From contig PGYV01000015.1 of NCBI GenBank assembly GCA_002839855.1, positions 1-64,000 on the forward strand: 64,000 bases of DNA, read 5' to 3'. This DNA is from Candidatus Goldiibacteriota bacterium HGW-Goldbacteria-1. Lineage in GTDB: Bacteria; Oederibacteriota; PGYV01. Below, one piece after another: positions 25,044 to 33,574 of this stretch (its first letter is position 1; each line of letters begins with the position of its first letter). A program made the position numbers and the translations under genes. A model generated the notes under the pieces. The model did not search any database and was not told the origin of the DNA. It saw nothing but the letters and a program-made list of their open reading frames with translations.

Positions 25044-26078
25044 ATGATGAAAATGATAAAAGCGGCTGTAATTGGGGCGGGCAAGATTGCGGAAAGGACG
25101 CATCTTCCGCAGTATAAAGAATTAAAGAACGTGGAAGTGGCGGCAATATGCGATATAAACAGGAAAAAAGCTGAACGCCTTGCGAAAATGTTTTCAATAC
25201 CGGCTGTATATACAGATTACAAAAAGATGATAAAAGAGTGCGGATGCGAAGCTGTATCTGTATGTACGCCTAACTATTTACACGCGCCTATGTCAATATT
25301 CGCGGCAAAAAATAATATGCATGTACTTGTGGAAAAACCAATGGCTATGTCCGTAAAAGAGATGAAAGCAATGATAGCGGCTTCAAAGGCGGCCAAAAAA
25401 GTTTTAATGGTGGAACAGTCACACCGTTTTGACCCCGGCCATGAAGTTTTAAAAGATATAGTGGACAGCGGCATCATAGGAAAAGTGGTATCAGTGCGCG
25501 GCAAGCTTGGCCATTCCGGGCCGGAATTCTGGTCGGATGATTCGCCATGGTTTTTTGATGAGAAAAAATCAGGCGGAGGAGTTACTGTTGATGTGGGAAT
25601 ACATATCCTTGACCTTATCCGTTTTGTCACCGGCAAGAATGTGGCGTCGGTCTCCGGTTATATGGCAAACCTTGTAAAGAAGAAAGCAAAACTTGAAGAT
25701 AACGTGGAAGCCGCGATTAAATTTACGGACGGTACAATTGGCGTATATGAAGCGTCCTGGACAAACAGCCCGTATGAAGTTGTGGTGCAGGTTTACGGAA
25801 CAAAAGGAAAAGCGATGGTAAACCAGTCCAACTATGACCCGCAGAGGGTGCGCGTGTGGACGGTGAATCCGGCAAATCCATACAATACGGTAAAAGAAAT
25901 CAGGTATAAGATTCCCGCGAAAAGCAGAAACACAAGCCCTATAGCGCATTTTATTGACTGTGTTTTTAATAAAAAGAAGTGCATTATAGACGGAACAGAA
26001 GGAATGAAATCCGCCGCGGCAGTCATTGCCACAAGGCAGTCCGCCAAAACCGGCAAGCCGGTTAAACTTACGGTATAG
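25044..26078 (+). CDS. Gfo/Idh/MocA family oxidoreductase
   Basis: 344 residues. The N-terminal Rossmann motif is VIGAGKIAERTHLPQYKEL, followed by the family's EKPMAMS (Lys-Pro) motif and a GGGVTVDVGIHILDLIRF region typical of the catalytic His. These NAD(P)-dependent enzymes oxidise sugars or inositols, or reduce keto-sugars. The downstream sugar isomerase/epimerase is only 11 bp away, so the two probably form a short catabolic or interconversion pathway. The substrate is unknown. Confidence 0.85.
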   Translation: MMKMIKAAVIGAGKIAERTHLPQYKELKNVEVAAICDINRKKAERLAKMFSIPAVYTDYKKMIKECGCEAVSVCTPNYLHAPMSIFAAKNNMHVLVEKPMAMSVKEMKAMIAASKAAKKVLMVEQSHRFDPGHEVLKDIVDSGIIGKVVSVRGKLGHSGPEFWSDDSPWFFDEKKSGGGVTVDVGIHILDLIRFVTGKNVASVSGYMANLVKKKAKLEDNVEAAIKFTDGTIGVYEASWTNSPYEVVVQVYGTKGKAMVNQSNYDPQRVRVWTVNPANPYNTVKEIRYKIPAKSRNTSPIAHFIDCVFNKKKCIIDGTEGMKSAAAVIATRQSAKTGKPVKLTV

Positions 26079-26089
26079 GGAGAACGCAA

Positions 26090-26923
26090 ATGTCATATAA
26101 GCTAAGCGCTGTTACATGGTCACATCATTATTCTTTTGAAACCGGAAAAATTGATGATATGGGTTTGATTAACCTTTATGCGAAAGAAGGCCTTGGCGGG
26201 ATTGAATTTATTATGGAACATTTGAAATCGCATGATGAGAAACACCTGTTAAAATTAAAAAAATATGCTGCGGATAAAAATATAAATTTTTCCGCAATAT
26301 CGCCGGGCAATAACTTTGGCAATGTGAATGATAAGGATAATAAATCAAATCTGGCATACGTTCAGAAAAGCATTGATACCGCGTATATACTTGGCGCGCC
26401 GAATGTAAGGGTGTTTGCTGGCTGGCCGCCCGCGGGTATGCGTGAAAAGATGTGGGGCACAGCTGTAAGGTATATGAAGCTTGCGGCAAAATACGCCGAA
26501 AAAAAGGGAATAACGCTTGCGGTAGAGCCGCATAACAATGGCGGTTTTCTGCCGGATTCAAAGTCCGCAGTCAGGTTCATAAAAGATGTTAACTCCCCGT
26601 TTGTTAAAATGAATGTAGATACCGGGAATTACCTTGGGCACGATAAGGATATTTATAAAGCAATAGCCGCTTCAATGAAATATACGGTAAATTGCCACTT
26701 AAAAGTCCACGCTATATCCAAAGACGGCAAAAAGACCTCCGATTTTAACCTTGATAAGGTGTTTAAAGTGTTAAGCGGCGCGCAATATACCGGGTGGATA
26801 GCAATTGAATATGAAGGGCAGGAATTTGTAAGCGGTGAAAAACCGGACAGGGCAAAGAATGAAATGGAGTATTTTGGGGCGGCTGTCAAAAGGGCGAAGG
26901 AAATGATAAGGAAATACTATTAA
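26090..26923 (+). CDS. Sugar phosphate isomerase/epimerase (xylose isomerase-like TIM barrel)
   Basis: 277 residues. Metal-ligand motifs are visible: LAVEPHNNGGFL (Glu), VKMNVDTGNYL (Asp), CHLKVHA (His) and WIAIEYEGQE (Glu), the AP endonuclease-2/xylose isomerase-like layout. Such enzymes interconvert ketoses and aldoses or epimerise keto-sugars. Paired with the Gfo/Idh/MocA oxidoreductase, it most likely acts on the same sugar. No substrate is readable from the sequence. Confidence 0.83.
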   Translation: MSYKLSAVTWSHHYSFETGKIDDMGLINLYAKEGLGGIEFIMEHLKSHDEKHLLKLKKYAADKNINFSAISPGNNFGNVNDKDNKSNLAYVQKSIDTAYILGAPNVRVFAGWPPAGMREKMWGTAVRYMKLAAKYAEKKGITLAVEPHNNGGFLPDSKSAVRFIKDVNSPFVKMNVDTGNYLGHDKDIYKAIAASMKYTVNCHLKVHAISKDGKKTSDFNLDKVFKVLSGAQYTGWIAIEYEGQEFVSGEKPDRAKNEMEYFGAAVKRAKEMIRKYY

Positions 26924-27178
26924 GGTCGGATGGTTGGAAGGTTGGATGGTTAGATGCTTTGTTTAAAAATGGTTGAAACGGGCGTACGGAAGGAAATGTC
27001 AGAAACATGCCGGAAATGATATCGCAGGGCCGCAATATATTGCGGCCGGATTTAAGAACACATTTTGTACCTGCGGCTGCAGGCACGGGCTTTTCAAAAT
27101 TCGGGTAAAATTTTTGCCTTTAAACTTCCTATCTATTAATATATAATAACATTCATAAAATTTGAAAGGGGCAATAAC
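26924..27178. other. Intergenic region with class D repeat and a palindrome
   Basis: 26925-26958 is 'ggttggaaggttggatggtt' (class D). 27028-27047 is the palindrome GGCCGCAATATATTGCGGCC without a T tract. TATAAT at 27142-27147, 32 nt before metF, is a plausible -10 box. Confidence 0.5.
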
Positions 27179-28054
27179 TTGAAAATAAGCGAAATATTAA
27201 AGAATAAAGAGTTTGTTTTTTCCATGGAGATTTTTCCGCCAAAGCCGGATTCGGATATATCGGTAATTTATAATACACTGGACGGGCTTAAGGATTTAAA
27301 GCCTGATTTTATAAGCATTACCTTTGGCGCCGGCGGCGGCACCCGTTCAAGGACTGTGGAAATAGCGGAGCGTATTGAAAACCATTATAAAATACCCTGC
27401 ATGGCACACCTTACCTGCATTGGCGCCACAAAAGATTCCATTACAGGTATATTAAATGAACTGCAATCAAAGAATATTCAGAATATAATGGCGCTAAGGG
27501 GCGACCTGCCTGAAGGTGTTAAAGACCCGCTGAAAGATTTCAAGTACGCATCTGACCTTGTTAAATTTATAAAGAATAAATGGGATTTCTGTGTGGGTGT
27601 AGCCGGATACCCTGAAAAACACCCTGAAGCAAAAGATATAAAAGTGGATATAGAAAATCTTAAGAATAAAGTTGAAGCAGGGGCTTCTTTTATCACCACT
27701 CAGTTGTTTTTAAATGATGACCATTACTTCAATTTTGTTAAATTGGCCAGGGAAGCGGGAATCAAAGTGCCTGTTCTGCCGGGAATAATGACAGCAACAA
27801 AGATTTCAAGCCTTGAACGCATGACAAAGATGTGCGGAGTGGAGATACCGGAGCGCTTTAAAATCGCCACTTCCACCTGCGCTATTGACAACCCTGTATG
27901 TGATGAAACCGTAAAATATACAGTAGGGCAGATAAACCACCTTATAAAAAACGGGGTGCCCGGTATTCATCTGTACACCATGAACAGGGTGGAACAGAAC
28001 AGGCACATATATAATGAATCCGATATTTCCAAATTAAGGAACGGCAATGTTTAA
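27179..28054 (+). CDS. metF: 5,10-methylenetetrahydrofolate reductase
   Basis: TTG start with GAAAGGGGC upstream; 291 residues, the usual bacterial length. FSMEIFPPKPD, SITFGAGGGTRSRT, HLTCIGAT, IMALRGDLPEG and a middle GASFITTQLFLNDDHYF are MetF signatures. The enzyme uses FAD and makes 5-methyl-THF for methionine synthesis; in acetogens it also serves the Wood-Ljungdahl pathway. No other folate gene is adjacent. It overlaps fluC by 8 bp. Confidence 0.94.
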   Translation: MKISEILKNKEFVFSMEIFPPKPDSDISVIYNTLDGLKDLKPDFISITFGAGGGTRSRTVEIAERIENHYKIPCMAHLTCIGATKDSITGILNELQSKNIQNIMALRGDLPEGVKDPLKDFKYASDLVKFIKNKWDFCVGVAGYPEKHPEAKDIKVDIENLKNKVEAGASFITTQLFLNDDHYFNFVKLAREAGIKVPVLPGIMTATKISSLERMTKMCGVEIPERFKIATSTCAIDNPVCDETVKYTVGQINHLIKNGVPGIHLYTMNRVEQNRHIYNESDISKLRNGNV

Positions 28055-28436
28055 TAAAATACTTATGGTGGCGGCGGGCGGCGGCCTTGGCGCGGTTGCC
28101 AGATTTGCTGTAACACACCTTGTAAATCAGGCGTTTCCGGGAACTCTTATCTCTCATTGGGGCACTCTTGCGGTTAATCTTGCGGGTTCTTTTCTGATAG
28201 GTGTCCTGTTTTCCACTGTGCAGGGAGTGCCGCATTTTAACCACCTGTGGCTTTTTTTCGCGGTGGGATTTATGGGCGCGTTTACCACTTTTTCATCATA
28301 CGCGCTGGAAATGCATAACCAGCTTGGCGCGGGTATGTATAAAGACGCGGCGCTTAATTTTTTGCTGAACAATATTGGCGCTGTGCTTATGGTGTTTGCG
28401 GGTATAATGCTTGTTAAGATGATAAAAGGACAATAA
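28047..28436 (+). CDS. fluC: Fluoride ion channel FluC (CrcB)
   Basis: 129 residues with four predicted membrane helices. GGGLGAVARF, GTLAVNLAGSFLIGV and GFMGAFTTFSSYALE are the conserved CrcB/FluC motifs (fluoride-permeation Phe/Thr/Ser residues). It exports fluoride and works as a dual-topology dimer. It overlaps metF by 8 bp, so translation is coupled; no fluoride riboswitch was noticed upstream of the operon. Confidence 0.93.
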   Translation: MFNKILMVAAGGGLGAVARFAVTHLVNQAFPGTLISHWGTLAVNLAGSFLIGVLFSTVQGVPHFNHLWLFFAVGFMGAFTTFSSYALEMHNQLGAGMYKDAALNFLLNNIGAVLMVFAGIMLVKMIKGQ

Positions 28437-28454
28437 TAAAATAAGAGGTTTTCT

Positions 28455-29267
28455 ATGAAAATAGATTTTCACACCCATTTTTTTCCTGATGAAATCGCGG
28501 AAAAAACAATTAGGCATCTTGAAAACCTTGGCAATATAAAAGGGTATGGAAACGGTGATTTATTGTCTCTGCGGCAGTATATGAAAGAAGACGGAATAAC
28601 TTTGTCGGTTAATGTGCCTGCCGCCACAAAGCCGCAGCAGGTGGTTGGAATAAACAGGCGCATGGTTGAATTCAACAAAGCCGGGAATAAAGATATAATT
28701 TGTTTTGGCGCAATGCACCCTTATTTTAATACAATAGGCAGTTTTGAAGATGAAATTCAGTTTTTATCCGATAACGGCATTAAGGGGATTAAGATGCACC
28801 CGGAGTATCAGCAGTTTTACCCTGATGACGGAAGGGTAAAAAAAGTTTATAAGACCTGCGCCAAATTAGGCATGATAATTTTATTTCACGCGGGCGCGGA
28901 CTGTGCTTTTGACGAGAACGATGTAAAAGGCACGCCTCAGCGTTTTGCCGGGGTGGCTGATACCTATCCGCAGCTAAAAATGGTGCTTGCGCATATGGGC
29001 GGCTATCACCTGTGGGATGACGTTTACAGGTATTTAGTCGGAAAAAATGTTTATTTTGACACGGCATTCTGTGATGAAATGGAAGACACTGCTTTTACCA
29101 ACATAATAAAAGACCACGGAGAGGATAGAATAGTTCTTGGTTCTGATTTTCCGTGGGAACGCCCCGCGAAAATGATAACGAAAATTGAAAGGTGTTTTTC
29201 TGAAAGTGAAATTAAAGAAAAAATATACCATCTAAACGCCGAAAAACTTCTGGGTATTAATATTTAA
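28455..29267 (+). CDS. Amidohydrolase family 2 metal-dependent hydrolase/decarboxylase (copy 1)
   Basis: 270 residues, PF04909-type TIM barrel. Metal and catalytic motifs: DFHTHFF (HxH), GIKMHPEYQQFYPDD, LFHAGAD (His), LAHMGGY (His) and LGSDFPW (Asp). Relatives include lactonases and non-oxidative decarboxylases. It begins the run of genes leading to a split transketolase and a RuBisCO-like protein. The next gene is a paralogue whose start codon overlaps this stop codon (TAATG). The substrate is unknown. Confidence 0.85.
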   Translation: MKIDFHTHFFPDEIAEKTIRHLENLGNIKGYGNGDLLSLRQYMKEDGITLSVNVPAATKPQQVVGINRRMVEFNKAGNKDIICFGAMHPYFNTIGSFEDEIQFLSDNGIKGIKMHPEYQQFYPDDGRVKKVYKTCAKLGMIILFHAGADCAFDENDVKGTPQRFAGVADTYPQLKMVLAHMGGYHLWDDVYRYLVGKNVYFDTAFCDEMEDTAFTNIIKDHGEDRIVLGSDFPWERPAKMITKIERCFSESEIKEKIYHLNAEKLLGINI

Positions 29268-30076
29268 TGAGAATAATTGACACGCACACACATTTTTTTA
29301 CTGATGACAGAAGTCCGTCGGATAAAGAATATCTTAAATCGGAAGGTTTGATACTGGAAGGTAATGACGGGGAGTTGGAAGGGCTGAAAAAGTTTATGAA
29401 AGCAGACGGTATATCTGTTTCGGTAAATGCCCCTATTGCTTTGTCGCATCAGGCGTGTTTAAAAGTCAACAGAATGATGATTGAATTTAATAAGAAACAG
29501 AAAAATGTAATATGTCTTGGTACAATGCATCCTTCCATGGGCAAGTTGGTGTTTGAAGAAGCGCAGTTTCTGGCAGAAAGCGGGATAAAAGGTGTTAAGA
29601 TGCATCCGCAGATACAGGGTTTCTACCCGGATGATAATAATATGAAAGATATATATGAAGCGTGCGAAAAAAACGGCCTCTATATGCTGCAGCACGCCGG
29701 CGCGGGAGCAGAGGCGGATTTTGACCGTGAAAAAATAAAAGGCATACCTGAAAGATTTAAAAATGTCATCGATACTTATCCGGGGTTAAAACTTGTAATA
29801 GCTCACATGGGCGGGCTTAATATGTGGGGTGATGCCATGAAATATCTGTGCGGAAAAAACGTCCTGTTTGACACCGCTTATTGCACGGTTATGGAAGAGG
29901 AATTATTGACGGAAGTTGTTAAAGCCCATGGCGCGGATAAAATATTATTTGGGTCAGATTTCCCGTGGGTGAGGGCGTCTGAGATAACGGAAAAGTTGAC
30001 ACTGTGTATTAATAACGAAGAAGACAGAAAGAAGATATTTCACATGAATGCATGTGCGTTATTGGGGATAGAATGA
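29267..30076 (+). CDS. Amidohydrolase family 2 metal-dependent hydrolase/decarboxylase (copy 2)
   Basis: 269 residues and all the motifs of the preceding paralogue: DTHTHFF, GVKMHPQIQGFYPDDN, LQHAGAG, IAHMGGL, FGSDFPW. The stop/start overlap shows translational coupling. Two paralogous amidohydrolases side by side suggest either sequential steps on related lactones or amides, or a heteromeric enzyme. This is inference; the sequence shows only intact metal-binding residues in both. Confidence 0.85.
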   Translation: MRIIDTHTHFFTDDRSPSDKEYLKSEGLILEGNDGELEGLKKFMKADGISVSVNAPIALSHQACLKVNRMMIEFNKKQKNVICLGTMHPSMGKLVFEEAQFLAESGIKGVKMHPQIQGFYPDDNNMKDIYEACEKNGLYMLQHAGAGAEADFDREKIKGIPERFKNVIDTYPGLKLVIAHMGGLNMWGDAMKYLCGKNVLFDTAYCTVMEEELLTEVVKAHGADKILFGSDFPWVRASEITEKLTLCINNEEDRKKIFHMNACALLGIE

Positions 30077-30183
30077 GTTTGTAAGTCTTGTGTTTTTTTG
30101 CAGTGTTTAAATTTCATCACGTATTTTTAACTTTATCCTTTGTCTGTTATCTGTTAATATTACTTAATAACACGGAGGATATA

Positions 30184-31101
30184 ATGTCAAAACCTGAATT
30201 AAGCTGGCAGGAAAAAGCTAAAAATATGGCATCCGGGATAAGAAGGCGGGTGCTTGAACATACAATAAAAAATAACGGCGGATATATGAGCCAGGCGTGC
30301 TCTTCCGCGGAAATCTTTGCGGCTTTATACAGCAAAATATTAAAACTTGAACCTTCCAAAGGCCCCCTTGAACCAAAACCCTATGCGGGAGTGCCCGGTT
30401 CTGTAAATTCCAAATATTCCACCGGTGCTTATATGCACGGCGCAAAAAACCCTGAATATGACAGGTTTATATTATCTCCCACGCATTACTCGCTTGTGCT
30501 TTATGCCGCGCTTATAGAGGCGGGCAGAATGTCGGAAAATTCCCTTGACCAGTTTAACCGCGACGGGTCATCTGTTGAAATGATAGGCGCGGAGCATTCC
30601 CCCGGAATGGAAGTAATGACAGGGTCTTTAGGGCAGGGTCTTGGCCAGGCAGCCGGTATTGCGCTTGCCAGAAAAATGAAAAAAGAAGAGGGCAGAGTAA
30701 TTGTCATGATGTCAGACGGCGAATTTCAGATAGGAATGACATGGGAATCGCTGCAGTTCATGTCACATCATAAACTTGATAATATGGTGATAATTGTGGA
30801 TGTAAATAAACAGCAGTGTGACGGCGCGGTAAATTTAGTTATGAAAATTGACCCGCTGGACAAAAGGCTGGAAGCTTTTGGGGCAAGGGTTTTTAAATTG
30901 TACGGGCATAATATTAATGAACTTGCGTCCCGGGCGGAATTAAGGCCGGACGGCAGGGTGCTGGTAATACTTGCGGAAACTGACCCGTGCCAGGGGCTTT
31001 CTTTATTAAGCGCGAATGCGCCCAAACTTCATTACTTAAGGTTTAAAAGCGCTGAAGAAAAAGCTAAATACGAAGAAGTGTTAAAGGGTATGGTGGAATA
31101 A
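30184..31101 (+). CDS. Transketolase-like protein, N-terminal (ThDP-binding) subunit
   Basis: An upstream in-frame ATG at 30088 would add a hydrophobic tail; CGGAGGAT at 30174-30181 supports ATG 30184 (305 residues). MMSDGEFQIGMTWESLQFMS starts the thiamine diphosphate GDG/SDG motif, followed by IIVDVNKQQCDG (the Asn). GSLGQGLGQAAGIALARKM is the conserved transketolase N-domain motif. It forms the enzyme together with the next gene, whose start overlaps its stop. Split transketolases transfer two-carbon ketol units; some act on unusual sugars such as apulose phosphate. Confidence 0.9.
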   Translation: MSKPELSWQEKAKNMASGIRRRVLEHTIKNNGGYMSQACSSAEIFAALYSKILKLEPSKGPLEPKPYAGVPGSVNSKYSTGAYMHGAKNPEYDRFILSPTHYSLVLYAALIEAGRMSENSLDQFNRDGSSVEMIGAEHSPGMEVMTGSLGQGLGQAAGIALARKMKKEEGRVIVMMSDGEFQIGMTWESLQFMSHHKLDNMVIIVDVNKQQCDGAVNLVMKIDPLDKRLEAFGARVFKLYGHNINELASRAELRPDGRVLVILAETDPCQGLSLLSANAPKLHYLRFKSAEEKAKYEEVLKGMVE

Positions 31102-32108
31102 TGGAAATTCTATCACGCGTACATCAGAAAAATCTTGTGTCCTGGGCAAGGGACAGGGAAAATGTCCTTGTATTGTCCGCGGACCTTACAGGTTCGTGCG
31201 AAGCTGACCTTTTCAGGGACACGTATCCGTCGCGTTTTATTTCCTGCGGAATTGCGGAGCAGAATATGATGTCGGTTGCCGGAGGCCTTGCAAGGGAAGG
31301 GTTTATACCTTTAGTTCATACATTCGCGGTTTTTATTTACAGAAGGGCTTATGACCAGATTGCGATGTCTGTGGCATATCCCAACCTTCCCGTTAAAATG
31401 TTTGGTTTTCTTCCCGGAATTGTAACGCCGGGCGGCGCCACGCATCAGGCAATTGAAGACGTATCTGTAATGAGGGCGCTGCCAAATATGACAATACTTG
31501 AAACAGGGGACGCCACAGATGTGGAAAGCGTGCTTGATGTAATGAGAAATGTTAACGGCCCGGTTTATATCAGAATGTTAAGAGGCGAACTGCCGCGCCT
31601 TTTTTCCGCGGATGAGCCCATGAAGTTTGACACGCCCAGAATAGTAAGCAAAGGTACGGATGTGACAATAATATCATCGGGTATTTGCACGGAAGAAACC
31701 CTGCGCGCATGTGCGGCTATGAAGAAAAAAGGGGTGTCTGTAAATCACGTGCATGTTTCCACGTTGAAACCATTTAATAATAAAATGTACGCGGACATAA
31801 TTAATACCGGTAAATACGGAGTTATAACGGTTGAAAATCATACTACTACCGGCGGTCTGGGTACAATAGTTGCGGAAAAAGCCGTAGCCTGCGGTATTAA
31901 TAAAAGAATGGCAAGGCTGGGTTTAAGGGATACCTTTACACACGGCGCAAGCAGGCCATATCTTATGAAAGAGCACGGCTTTGATGCCGCTGCGATAATA
32001 CATGCTGTGGAGAAACTGACAGGAAATAAGCTGAATATTTCCGATGATGAACTTGCTAAAGTCAGGATAGAAGCTGTTCATTCCGAAGCAAAAGCCGAAG
32101 GCCTTTAA
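31101..32108 (+). CDS. Transketolase-like protein, C-terminal subunit
   Basis: 335 residues. FISCGIAEQNMMSVAGGLAR holds the catalytic Glu of the pyrimidine-binding domain, and a transketolase C-terminal domain follows (GVITVENHTTTGGLGTIVAE). The start codon overlaps the stop of the N-subunit (TAATG), so the two are made in equal amounts. Closely similar layouts are called TktB, AptB or DXS-like; the residues alone do not say which. It lies 31 bp upstream of the SMR gene. Confidence 0.9.
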   Translation: MEILSRVHQKNLVSWARDRENVLVLSADLTGSCEADLFRDTYPSRFISCGIAEQNMMSVAGGLAREGFIPLVHTFAVFIYRRAYDQIAMSVAYPNLPVKMFGFLPGIVTPGGATHQAIEDVSVMRALPNMTILETGDATDVESVLDVMRNVNGPVYIRMLRGELPRLFSADEPMKFDTPRIVSKGTDVTIISSGICTEETLRACAAMKKKGVSVNHVHVSTLKPFNNKMYADIINTGKYGVITVENHTTTGGLGTIVAEKAVACGINKRMARLGLRDTFTHGASRPYLMKEHGFDAAAIIHAVEKLTGNKLNISDDELAKVRIEAVHSEAKAEGL

Positions 32109-32138
32109 CAAATACCGTTAAAAAATCAGGAGAACACT

Positions 32139-32456
32139 ATGGACTGGATAATTCTGTTTATTGCAGGCATATTTGAAACGGCGTGGGCGCTGACACTTAA
32201 ATACACGCAGGGATTTACAAAACCCATGTTCAGCGTGATTACCGTTATTTTTATGGTAATAAGTTTCTTTCTGCTTTCATACGCGTTAAAGACAATTCCG
32301 GTGGGCACGGCATACGCGGTGTGGACGGGAATCGGAGCGCTTGGCGTGGCAATTATCGGTATAGTGTTTTTGGCAGAGCCTGTTAACGCCATGCGTATTA
32401 TCAGCCTGCTATTGGTGGTGGCCGGTGTTGCCGGATTAAGGCTGGCGGGAAAATAG
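32139..32456 (+). CDS. sugE: SMR family exporter of the SugE/Gdx (guanidinium) type
   Basis: 105 residues with four membrane helices. MDWIILFIAGIFETAWALTL carries the essential Glu13; KYTQGF and PVGTAYAVWTGIGALGVAI match the Gdx/SugE subclass more than EmrE. Gdx proteins export guanidinium in exchange for protons as antiparallel dimers. No guanidine riboswitch was noticed. It lies between the transketolase and the RuBisCO-like gene, whose GTG start overlaps its stop by 1 bp. Confidence 0.9.
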   Translation: MDWIILFIAGIFETAWALTLKYTQGFTKPMFSVITVIFMVISFFLLSYALKTIPVGTAYAVWTGIGALGVAIIGIVFLAEPVNAMRIISLLLVVAGVAGLRLAGK

Positions 32457-33574
32457 TGGATAAGACAAAATGGTTTACCGCGCAGTACGCCATTACCGCG
32501 GGGAATATGGCGGAGGCTAAAGAGCGCGCTTTTGATATCTGCGTGGAGCAGACTGTTGAATTTCCTTATGACCTGATAAAGAAAAAAAGTATCAAAGAAA
32601 ATATTGTCGGAAAAATAAGTTCTTTAAGTGAGATTAAAAAAGGTTTTTATAAAGCGGAAATATTATTTCCGTCTGCCGCGGCGGGTAATGAATTAACCCA
32701 GCTTTTAAATGTCCTGTTCGGCAATATCAGCATAAAACCCGGAATCAGACTTGAAAGATTTAATCTTACAGGCGCCATGTCAAAAACTTTTAGCGGCCCG
32801 CGTTTCGGGGTTAAAGGGATAAAAAAAATAACCGGCAATAAAAAACGCCCGCTTGTATGTTCCGCTTTAAAGCCAATGGGAACAAGTGTTAAAGAACTGG
32901 CGGAACTTGCATATAAATTTGCGCTTGGCGGAATAGACATCATTAAAGACGACCATGGCCTTGCTGATCAGAAATTTTCACCTTTTAATGAAAGGGTAAA
33001 AAGGTGCACGGAAGCGGTCAGGAAAGCAAATAAGCAGACCGGATACAATACGGTATATATGCCAAATGTTACAGGGGACGGGGCAGAGACTTTAAAGAGG
33101 GCAAAGTTTGCGTCAAAGTGCGGAGCAGGCGCGGTAATAATTTCAGGGGCGCTTTCAGGTTTTGCTTCCATTTTTGAAGTATCGAAGGATACTAAAGTAA
33201 ACGTGCCTGTCTTTTTTCACCCGGCTTTTGCCGGCAGTTTTACATCATGCCAAAATTCTGGTATAAGCCATTATGCCCTGTACGGGCAGCTTACAAGGCT
33301 GTCAGGCGCGGACGCGGCTATCTTTCCAAGCTACGGCGGACGGTTTTCTTTTTCAAAAGAGGAATGCAGAAGCATTGTTAATGGCTGTACTGATAAATTT
33401 GGGAAAGCAAAGTCCATCATGCCGGCGCCGGGCGGCGGTATGACGGTTGAACGCGCGGCAGAACTTAAGCAATTCTACGGTAATGATGCTGTATTTCTTA
33501 TCGGCGGGGGATTATTCAGGCACAGTGATGATATAACCAAAAGCGTAAGGGATTTCATTTCCTGTTTAATATAA
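32456..33574 (+). CDS. RuBisCO-like protein (form IV, KDDH clade)
   Basis: GTG start; 372 residues. RuBisCO large-subunit fold: ALKPMG contains K139 (equivalent to the first active-site Lys), and GGIDIIKDDHGL carries K164-D165-D166-H167. The metal-site Glu of true RuBisCO (KDDE) is His here, and the second Lys of KPK is absent, so carboxylation of RuBP is not expected. HPAFAGSFTS and PSYGGRFSFS mark the His and phosphate-binding loops. Known KDDH-type relatives decarboxylate or isomerise sugar-acid phosphates; a related role is inferred. It is the last gene of the 28.4-33.6 kb run, followed by a TetR gene. Confidence 0.88.
   Translation: MDKTKWFTAQYAITAGNMAEAKERAFDICVEQTVEFPYDLIKKKSIKENIVGKISSLSEIKKGFYKAEILFPSAAAGNELTQLLNVLFGNISIKPGIRLERFNLTGAMSKTFSGPRFGVKGIKKITGNKKRPLVCSALKPMGTSVKELAELAYKFALGGIDIIKDDHGLADQKFSPFNERVKRCTEAVRKANKQTGYNTVYMPNVTGDGAETLKRAKFASKCGAGAVIISGALSGFASIFEVSKDTKVNVPVFFHPAFAGSFTSCQNSGISHYALYGQLTRLSGADAAIFPSYGGRFSFSKEECRSIVNGCTDKFGKAKSIMPAPGGGMTVERAAELKQFYGNDAVFLIGGGLFRHSDDITKSVRDFISCLI

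Follow-up and report, generated by a model that had tools for sequence, protein, structure and literature searches.

A split transketolase-like enzyme and a RuBisCO-like protein form a widespread gene unit that probably serves oxygen-independent methylthioribose salvage

The window analysed here is a stretch of 64,000 nucleotides (contig PGYV01000015.1, positions 1 to 64,000, contig C15 in our labelling) from the 2.86 Mb genome of Candidatus Goldiibacteriota bacterium HGW-Goldbacteria-1, and it carries on its forward (+) strand three genes that are the subject of this text. TktN (30184..31101) encodes the N-terminal, thiamine-diphosphate-binding half of a split transketolase-like enzyme (PF00456, 79 bits), and TktC (31101..32108) its C-terminal half with the pyrimidine-binding and C domains (PF02779, 105.6 bits; PF02780, 63 bits), the two together being referred to below as TktNC. 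The third gene encodes a RuBisCO-like protein (RLP; 32456..33574) with a RuBisCO_large domain (PF00016, 115 bits) and the motif KDDH. TktN starts at the ATG at 30184, preceded by GGAGG, and RLP at a GTG overlapping the stop codon of an SMR exporter gene of the Gdx/SugE type (32139..32456, +), which lies between TktC and RLP. An earlier note on this DNA had described these four genes, with two amidohydrolase genes in front of them (AmhA and AmhB), as one run; all six open reading frames exist with the identities it gave, as shown by domain and reading-frame checks.

To follow the RLP across genomes, 84,980 bacterial and archaeal species (one genome per species) were scanned with peptide patterns drawn from it, yielding 80 best loci, of which 70 reach 2 kb or more upstream of RLP and were testable. 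In 56 of these, TktN and TktC immediately precede RLP on its own strand, which excludes chance as the cause of the linkage and bears out the proposal that the RLP and the split transketolase belong together. RLPs of this type are found in Bacillota, Chloroflexota, Spirochaetota, Nitrospirota, Acidobacteriota, Elusimicrobiota, Calditrichota, Planctomycetota and one Lokiarchaeote, and the linkage to TktN and TktC extends over the first five of these phyla, the Lokiarchaeote and others; alphaproteobacterial plasmids carry TktN-TktC-RLP as well, beyond those 56 loci. Pairwise distances of RLP and TktC correlate (r 0.76 over 57 loci, 0/2000 permutations). Within the window's phylum, TktC of this type occurs in 12 of 45 genomes (above 570 bits, the remainder scoring below 280), with RLP adjacent in 12/12, and the closest named relatives of the window RLP come from Goldbacteria/FCPU426-type assemblies. 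Conservation of the whole six-gene run in relatives, on which the earlier note had staked its proposal in advance, does not hold: AmhA also occurs in genomes of the phylum that lack RLP, and the insertion of the SMR gene ahead of RLP is confined to the genus, where all three genomes have it. Among the six genes, only TktN-TktC-RLP is a conserved unit. TktNC is neither a missing Dxs nor a housekeeping transketolase, since the window genome has genes for both elsewhere, a Dxs and a canonical split transketolase. Elsewhere, a homologue of PF01547 solute-binding proteins, its N-terminus having no obvious signal peptide, is encoded at L021:11119-12255 and 11 other loci of Chloroflexota and Spirochaetota, often directly after RLP.

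Compared with solved structures, the window RLP scores 270 bits with 3qfw, which we take to be the DeepYkr RLP of Rhodopseudomonas palustris, and at most 161 bits with every other (152 with MtnW). In a maximum-likelihood tree, 79 sequences of this RLP type, that of the window included, form together with 3qfw one side of a 100/100 branch, apart from MtnW, Photo, NonPhoto and form III proteins (references 2zvi/2oek/3fk4, 1tel/2qyg and 2cwx); the 3qfw branch is long, and the tree does not fix its exact place within the clade. The KDDH that had been noticed in place of KDDE is indeed there, but it is the normal state of the clade and not peculiar to the window, being present in 79/79 sequences and in 3qfw as against KDDE in the nine other references. 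Judged by its sequence, the window RLP thus belongs to the KDDH (DeepYkr-type) clade of 3qfw. The alternative of an MtnW enolase, for which the earlier note had wanted a RuBisCO-superfamily tree, is rejected by that separate position and by scores far under the cut-offs of two equivalog models (232 bits against 409, and 178 against 513.6). The RLP of Rhodospirillum rubrum and RLP1 of R. palustris are 5-methylthioribulose-1-phosphate 1,3-isomerases, next in line to which a cupin releases methanethiol (PMC5893883; PMC4958253); by analogy with these members of its clade, the window RLP is predicted to be such an isomerase. A second RLP of the window genome (G000:C5:234175-234972, locus L001) has KDDE and is nearest to the Photo-type structures 1tel/1ykw and 2qyg, with 254-268 bits.

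The genes that recur beside TktN-TktC-RLP point to one pathway. They are MtnA (TIGR00512, linked in 13 of the loci examined), MtnK (TIGR01767, linked in 9, and genuine at 464-510 bits), ABC importers of sugar or nucleoside type, and transsulfuration enzymes. An operon mtnK-mtnA-TktN-TktC-RLP is found in Clostridium ljungdahlii, Clostridium drakei and Anaerosolibacter, with an importer gene in the lead in the two Clostridium species, whose loci also have an S-adenosylmethionine (SAM) riboswitch upstream (88.8 and 90.2 bits); such riboswitches occur near the unit only in some Bacillota relatives. The same five genes, by their RefSeq names, lie on plasmids of Rhizobiaceae and Devosiaceae (Pararhizobium, Ensifer, Mariluticola, Agrobacterium). 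In Ponticoccus the order is purine-nucleoside phosphorylase, deaminase-like amidohydrolase, mtnA, a BisC-family S/N-oxide reductase, TktN, TktC and RLP. Plasmid pMaD5 of Marinovum algicola (L133:5781-11611) has this type of TktN-TktC but no RLP, the pair lying next to a xylulokinase, a dehydrogenase, an aldolase-family gene and again a BisC-family S/N-oxide reductase; this suggests a second way to the same ketose-5-phosphate, and the xylulokinase and the reductase fit a sulfur-carrying, 1-substituted xylulose-5-phosphate as the substrate of TktNC.

The recurrence of mtnK and mtnA, importers, the phosphorylase and SAM riboswitches beside the unit therefore argues for salvage of 5'-methylthioadenosine (MTA) or 5-methylthioribose. 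It leaves without support the branched-sugar or sugar-lactone pathway that the earlier note had considered, in which the amidohydrolases would be lactonases acting alongside the RLP and the transketolase. The adjacency of these genes in the window speaks for such a pathway, and RLPs and split transketolases do occur in apiose catabolism. However, AmhA and AmhB stand outside the unit, mtn genes recur by the unit elsewhere, and the RLP reaches only 92 bits where the OiaX equivalog model has its cut-off at 700, which rejects the known apiose/apionate pathway, as the earlier note had also held. A branched-sugar or sugar-lactone pathway is very improbable indeed.

If the unit serves methylthioribose salvage, TktNC occupies the place that the cupin holds in the pathway of R. 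rubrum and R. palustris. Among 32 genomes with TktNC, a search for this cupin failed to find it in 31, those of the sister species G001 and the relatives G002 and G003 among them (the window genome lying outside the search), and it found the cupin in 8/8 Bacillota genomes that have the RLP without TktNC, in six of them within about 1.2 kb of RLP and in two elsewhere. The exclusion has a Fisher value of 1.2e-7, uncorrected for kinship, and nowhere in the genomes with the cupin does a TktC of this type exceed 40% identity. In the tree, RLPs linked to the cupin branch from among those linked to TktNC; its best version requires four changes between the two states, though only one is forced by well-supported branches. 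A few Chloroflexota and others have only distant cupins, or neither TktNC nor cupin close by. Transsulfuration/sulfhydrylase genes, whose products are potential users of methanethiol, lie near cupin loci and TktNC loci alike. From the mutual exclusion and the operon position, we infer that TktNC stands in place of the cupin methylsulfurylase, and it seems probable (about 0.77) that TktN-TktC-RLP is a branch of oxygen-independent MTA/methylthioribose salvage in which this replacement has occurred. In such a branch, MtnK or a nucleoside phosphorylase would provide methylthioribose-1-phosphate and MtnA would convert it to methylthioribulose-1-phosphate, a step that the operons support and for which the enzymes are known; the RLP, going by its clade, would then shift the carbonyl to give 1-methylthio-D-xylulose-5-phosphate, to be consumed by TktN and TktC acting as one thiamine-diphosphate enzyme instead of the cupin.

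What TktNC might do with this substrate can be approached through its active site. The closest solved structure to TktN is 6yak, the N half of the Carboxydothermus split transketolase, and TktC matches 6yaj best by sequence and by fold. The fold match is that of an AlphaFold model of TktC (pLDDT, the model's own confidence score, 84), which retrieves 6yaj first, then human transketolase and Dxs; its low-confidence loops (77-81 and 105-116) are the rebuilt ones. The thiamine-diphosphate motif DGE...N and the catalytic Glu53 are invariant in TktNC, and in TktC Glu53, His115, Arg158 and Arg161 are unchanged from transketolase. Relative to the human and Carboxydothermus enzymes, TktN carries GGYxSQ where they have SGHP, SPx(H/Q)Y where they have SKGHA, and in addition His284-Tyr-x-Arg, all three motifs being invariant in RLP-linked copies (TktN residues are counted from the codon preceding the ATG at 30184, so that one is to be subtracted for the protein), and TktC has FLPG for SHCG/THAG and TPGG for GEDG, with Glu34, His73 and Arg81 as further signature residues, the last two being new and invariant. 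At the equivalents of His30, His469 and Asp477 of yeast transketolase, presumably the residues that bind the acceptor and its phosphate, TktNC has Tyr (58/58), Leu (60/61) and Gly (60/61). Alphaproteobacterial copies share the rewired residues, three of which are different in the Vibrio copy. A divergent TktN-TktC pair just downstream of mtnA and RLP (L073:6835-8633; 35-39% identical) keeps most signature residues and is a possible second subfamily.

On purely chemical grounds, the likeliest of the possible reactions is that TktNC would attack C2 of 1-methylthio-xylulose-5-phosphate and cleave the C2-C3 bond, with glyceraldehyde-3-phosphate leaving; the bound C2 carbanion/enamine could then expel methanethiol to give acetyl-thiamine diphosphate. 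From this the acetyl unit would leave, either as acetate or as acetyl-phosphate, in the manner of phosphoketolase or sulfoacetaldehyde acetyltransferase. It is tentatively suggested, at somewhat less than even odds, that TktNC is an undescribed thiamine-diphosphate enzyme producing glyceraldehyde-3-phosphate, methanethiol and an acetyl unit in this way; it might then combine a C-C lyase with a C-S eliminase and need neither oxygen nor a reductant, a combination put forward with the same reserve. Its chemistry is probably new, since in the one such pathway known so far the step belongs to another protein.

Other fates of the substrate have to be weighed against acetyl release. Default transketolase chemistry would transfer or release the C2 unit intact, giving glyceraldehyde-3-phosphate and 2-(methylthio)acetaldehyde, or a methylthio-ketose by transfer to an aldose, and the product would feed the methylthioethanol/methanethiol route of the dihydroxyacetone phosphate (DHAP) shunts. 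The aldehyde is a known DHAP-shunt intermediate (PMC5893883), and zinc alcohol dehydrogenases at 4 loci and an aldolase and SDR-family gene in rhizobial clusters would suit it. But all three acceptor contacts carry invariant substitutions (His to Tyr, His to Leu, Asp to Gly), a poor fit to ordinary transfer to an aldose, and the potential methanethiol users occur beside cupin and TktNC loci alike; we consider an intact C2 product unlikely, if worth keeping in view.

The acetyl-thiamine-diphosphate route would be redox-neutral, whereas forming 1-deoxyxylulose-5-phosphate takes a reductant. A TktNC that yielded the latter together with methanethiol, as the cupin does, by rejoining the acetyl/hydroxyethyl unit to glyceraldehyde-3-phosphate for isoprenoids, would be a like-for-like replacement, and TktC is Dxs-like in sequence (158.9 bits). 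The two electrons needed have no conserved reductase to supply them, however, the acceptor-binding residues are altered, and 29 of 31 host genomes have their own Dxs over the cut-off, so that we think this outcome decidedly improbable.

The likeness of TktC to Dxs as well as to transketolase also bears on the question of whether the unit serves 5'-deoxyadenosine and 5-deoxyribose, with methylthio-sugars as side substrates. The RLP would then turn 5-deoxyribulose-1-phosphate into 1-deoxyxylulose-5-phosphate, which TktNC would cleave or channel. MtnA-like paralogues and class II aldolases of the deoxyribose-salvage type lie beside the module in Chloroflexota, known salvage enzymes accept both sugars (PMC6079011), and a transketolase step has been proposed for 5-deoxyribulose-1-phosphate in Methanocaldococcus jannaschii (PMC8102628). 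Against this, S/N-oxide reductases stand by two copies, MtnK is genuine, SAM riboswitches are present and the exchange is with a cupin that releases methanethiol, and a deoxyribose module seems rather improbable.

Several observations weigh against assigning the unit to methylthioribose salvage at all. In the window genome, mtnA and a purine-nucleoside phosphorylase lie beside each other on contig C2, unlinked to RLP, and this phosphorylase scores as such and not as an MTA phosphorylase. Although mtnA exceeds its cut-off in 46 of 50 genomes, it is near-universal in the phylum, RLP-less genomes included, so that its genome-level co-occurrence is uninformative and it is the operons that discriminate the pathway. 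The comparison of cupin and TktNC is not phylogenetically independent, L072 has TktNC plus a 48% cupin in one genome, and at five loci (L015, L056, L057, L009, L063) an RLP of the same clade has neither TktNC nor a close cupin adjacent. A further TktN-TktC pair in genome G101 has no RLP beside it (L120:7768-9686). Lastly, the replaced residues imply an altered chemistry or substrate without saying which. As to the surroundings of these exceptions, two of the five RLPs adjoin an FGGY kinase, DhaK/DhaL-like genes and a sugar importer, and the second pair of G101 adjoins a HAD-type hydrolase and a RidA-like gene.

Of the remaining genes of the run, the two for amidohydrolases form a lineage-specific block next to the unit. 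AmhA (28455..29267, +) is a metal-dependent hydrolase/decarboxylase-fold protein of PF04909, with a fold nearest to the 3nur/ACMSD decarboxylase group, and AmhB (29267..30076, +) is, as the earlier note had recognised, its paralogue, with 48% identity; their metal ligands are invariant. A spacer of 107 bases (30077..30183, +) precedes TktN, as had been reported, and in two sister species AmhB and TktN are parted there by a chemotaxis-receptor-like gene of 372 amino acids (read in one) or a gap of similar size. The tight packing claimed for the run holds for the one-base overlaps AmhA/AmhB, TktN/TktC and SMR/RLP, but a gap of 30 bases between TktC and the SMR gene had gone unmentioned. Further upstream lie a Gfo/Idh/MocA protein (from 25044) and a TIM-barrel isomerase (from 26090), both present as described, and a MetF-type methylenetetrahydrofolate reductase (27179..28054, +; TIGR00676, 307.5 bits against a cut-off of 293.7), which is related to methionine supply and separate from the core unit. 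The region 25044-30076, comprising these three genes, CrcB, AmhA and AmhB, is a block partly syntenic in the order and independent of the RLP unit. In the order, AmhA, alone or together with AmhB, is syntenic with the reductase gene and usually CrcB; it is on the strand opposite to RLP, like AmhB, in five other order-level relatives, and has relatives in phylum genomes without this TktC (G063, G068, G070, G073, G076, G079, G097). Occurring without RLP, on the opposite strand or split off by another gene, the amidohydrolases are rejected as pathway members. The SMR exporter is of the guanidinium type, as had been proposed (128.2 bits with the SugE model against a cut-off of 126; 122 bits with 6wk5, the nearest solved structure); being restricted to the genus it is rejected likewise and is probably not part of the pathway. 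AmhA, AmhB and SMR are probably bystanders of TktN-TktC-RLP. Neither a guanidine riboswitch nor any other Rfam match was found within the window, and promoter and terminator scans gave results at chance level.

The universal pathway of MTA methylthio recycling needs oxygen, and methylthio recycling by strict anaerobes is for this reason largely an open matter. A gene pair standing next to the RLP across many phyla offers a concrete, testable answer, along with a function for a large uncharacterised clade of the RuBisCO family and a relative of transketolase whose active site has been rebuilt, and industrial acetogens such as C. ljungdahlii carry the unit. No paper linking RuBisCO-like protein, transketolase and methylthio-sugars was found in the open-access literature, and the subscription literature may differ. 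If correct, TktNC with a KDDH RLP would make up a variant of MTA/methylthioribose salvage that needs no oxygen, is much more widespread than the cupin version and possibly has a new enzyme reaction inside.

The nearest known system is the MTA-isoprenoid shunt of R. rubrum and R. palustris, which is alike in its RLP clade, in MtnA upstream and in its oxygen-independent logic, and whose Cupin_2-type partner also occurs in eight Bacillota relatives. That shunt uses the cupin 1-methylthioxylulose-5-phosphate methylsulfurylase where a split thiamine-diphosphate enzyme stands here, and RLP plus cupin was counted in about 25 species in a 2018 survey (PMC5893883), the TktNC pairing being far more widespread. 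With the DHAP shunt and 5-deoxyribose salvage (MtnK/MtnP-MtnA-class II aldolase; DrdKIA) the first two steps are shared, and class II aldolases lie near some TktNC copies; there, however, an aldolase cleaves the 1-phosphate, whereas here C-C cleavage is assigned to the RLP and the thiamine-diphosphate enzyme. TktNC shares its fold, its split, the thiamine-diphosphate motif and the catalytic Glu with the split transketolase of Carboxydothermus hydrogenoformans (6yaj/6yak), but is 35% identical to it (fold search) and differs in the Tyr, Leu and Gly that replace the His30, His469 and Asp477 equivalents and in the new His73 and Arg81. MtnW (YkrW), the enolase of Bacillus methionine salvage, has the RuBisCO fold and methylthio-sugar phosphates as substrate class in common with the window RLP, which departs from it in KDDH for KDDE, in its score far under the equivalog cut-off and in its own clade. 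The OiaX/AptAB system of apiose/apionate catabolism also joins an RLP to a split transketolase, but the OiaX score here is far below the cut-off and the neighbours are those of the methylthioribose pathway.

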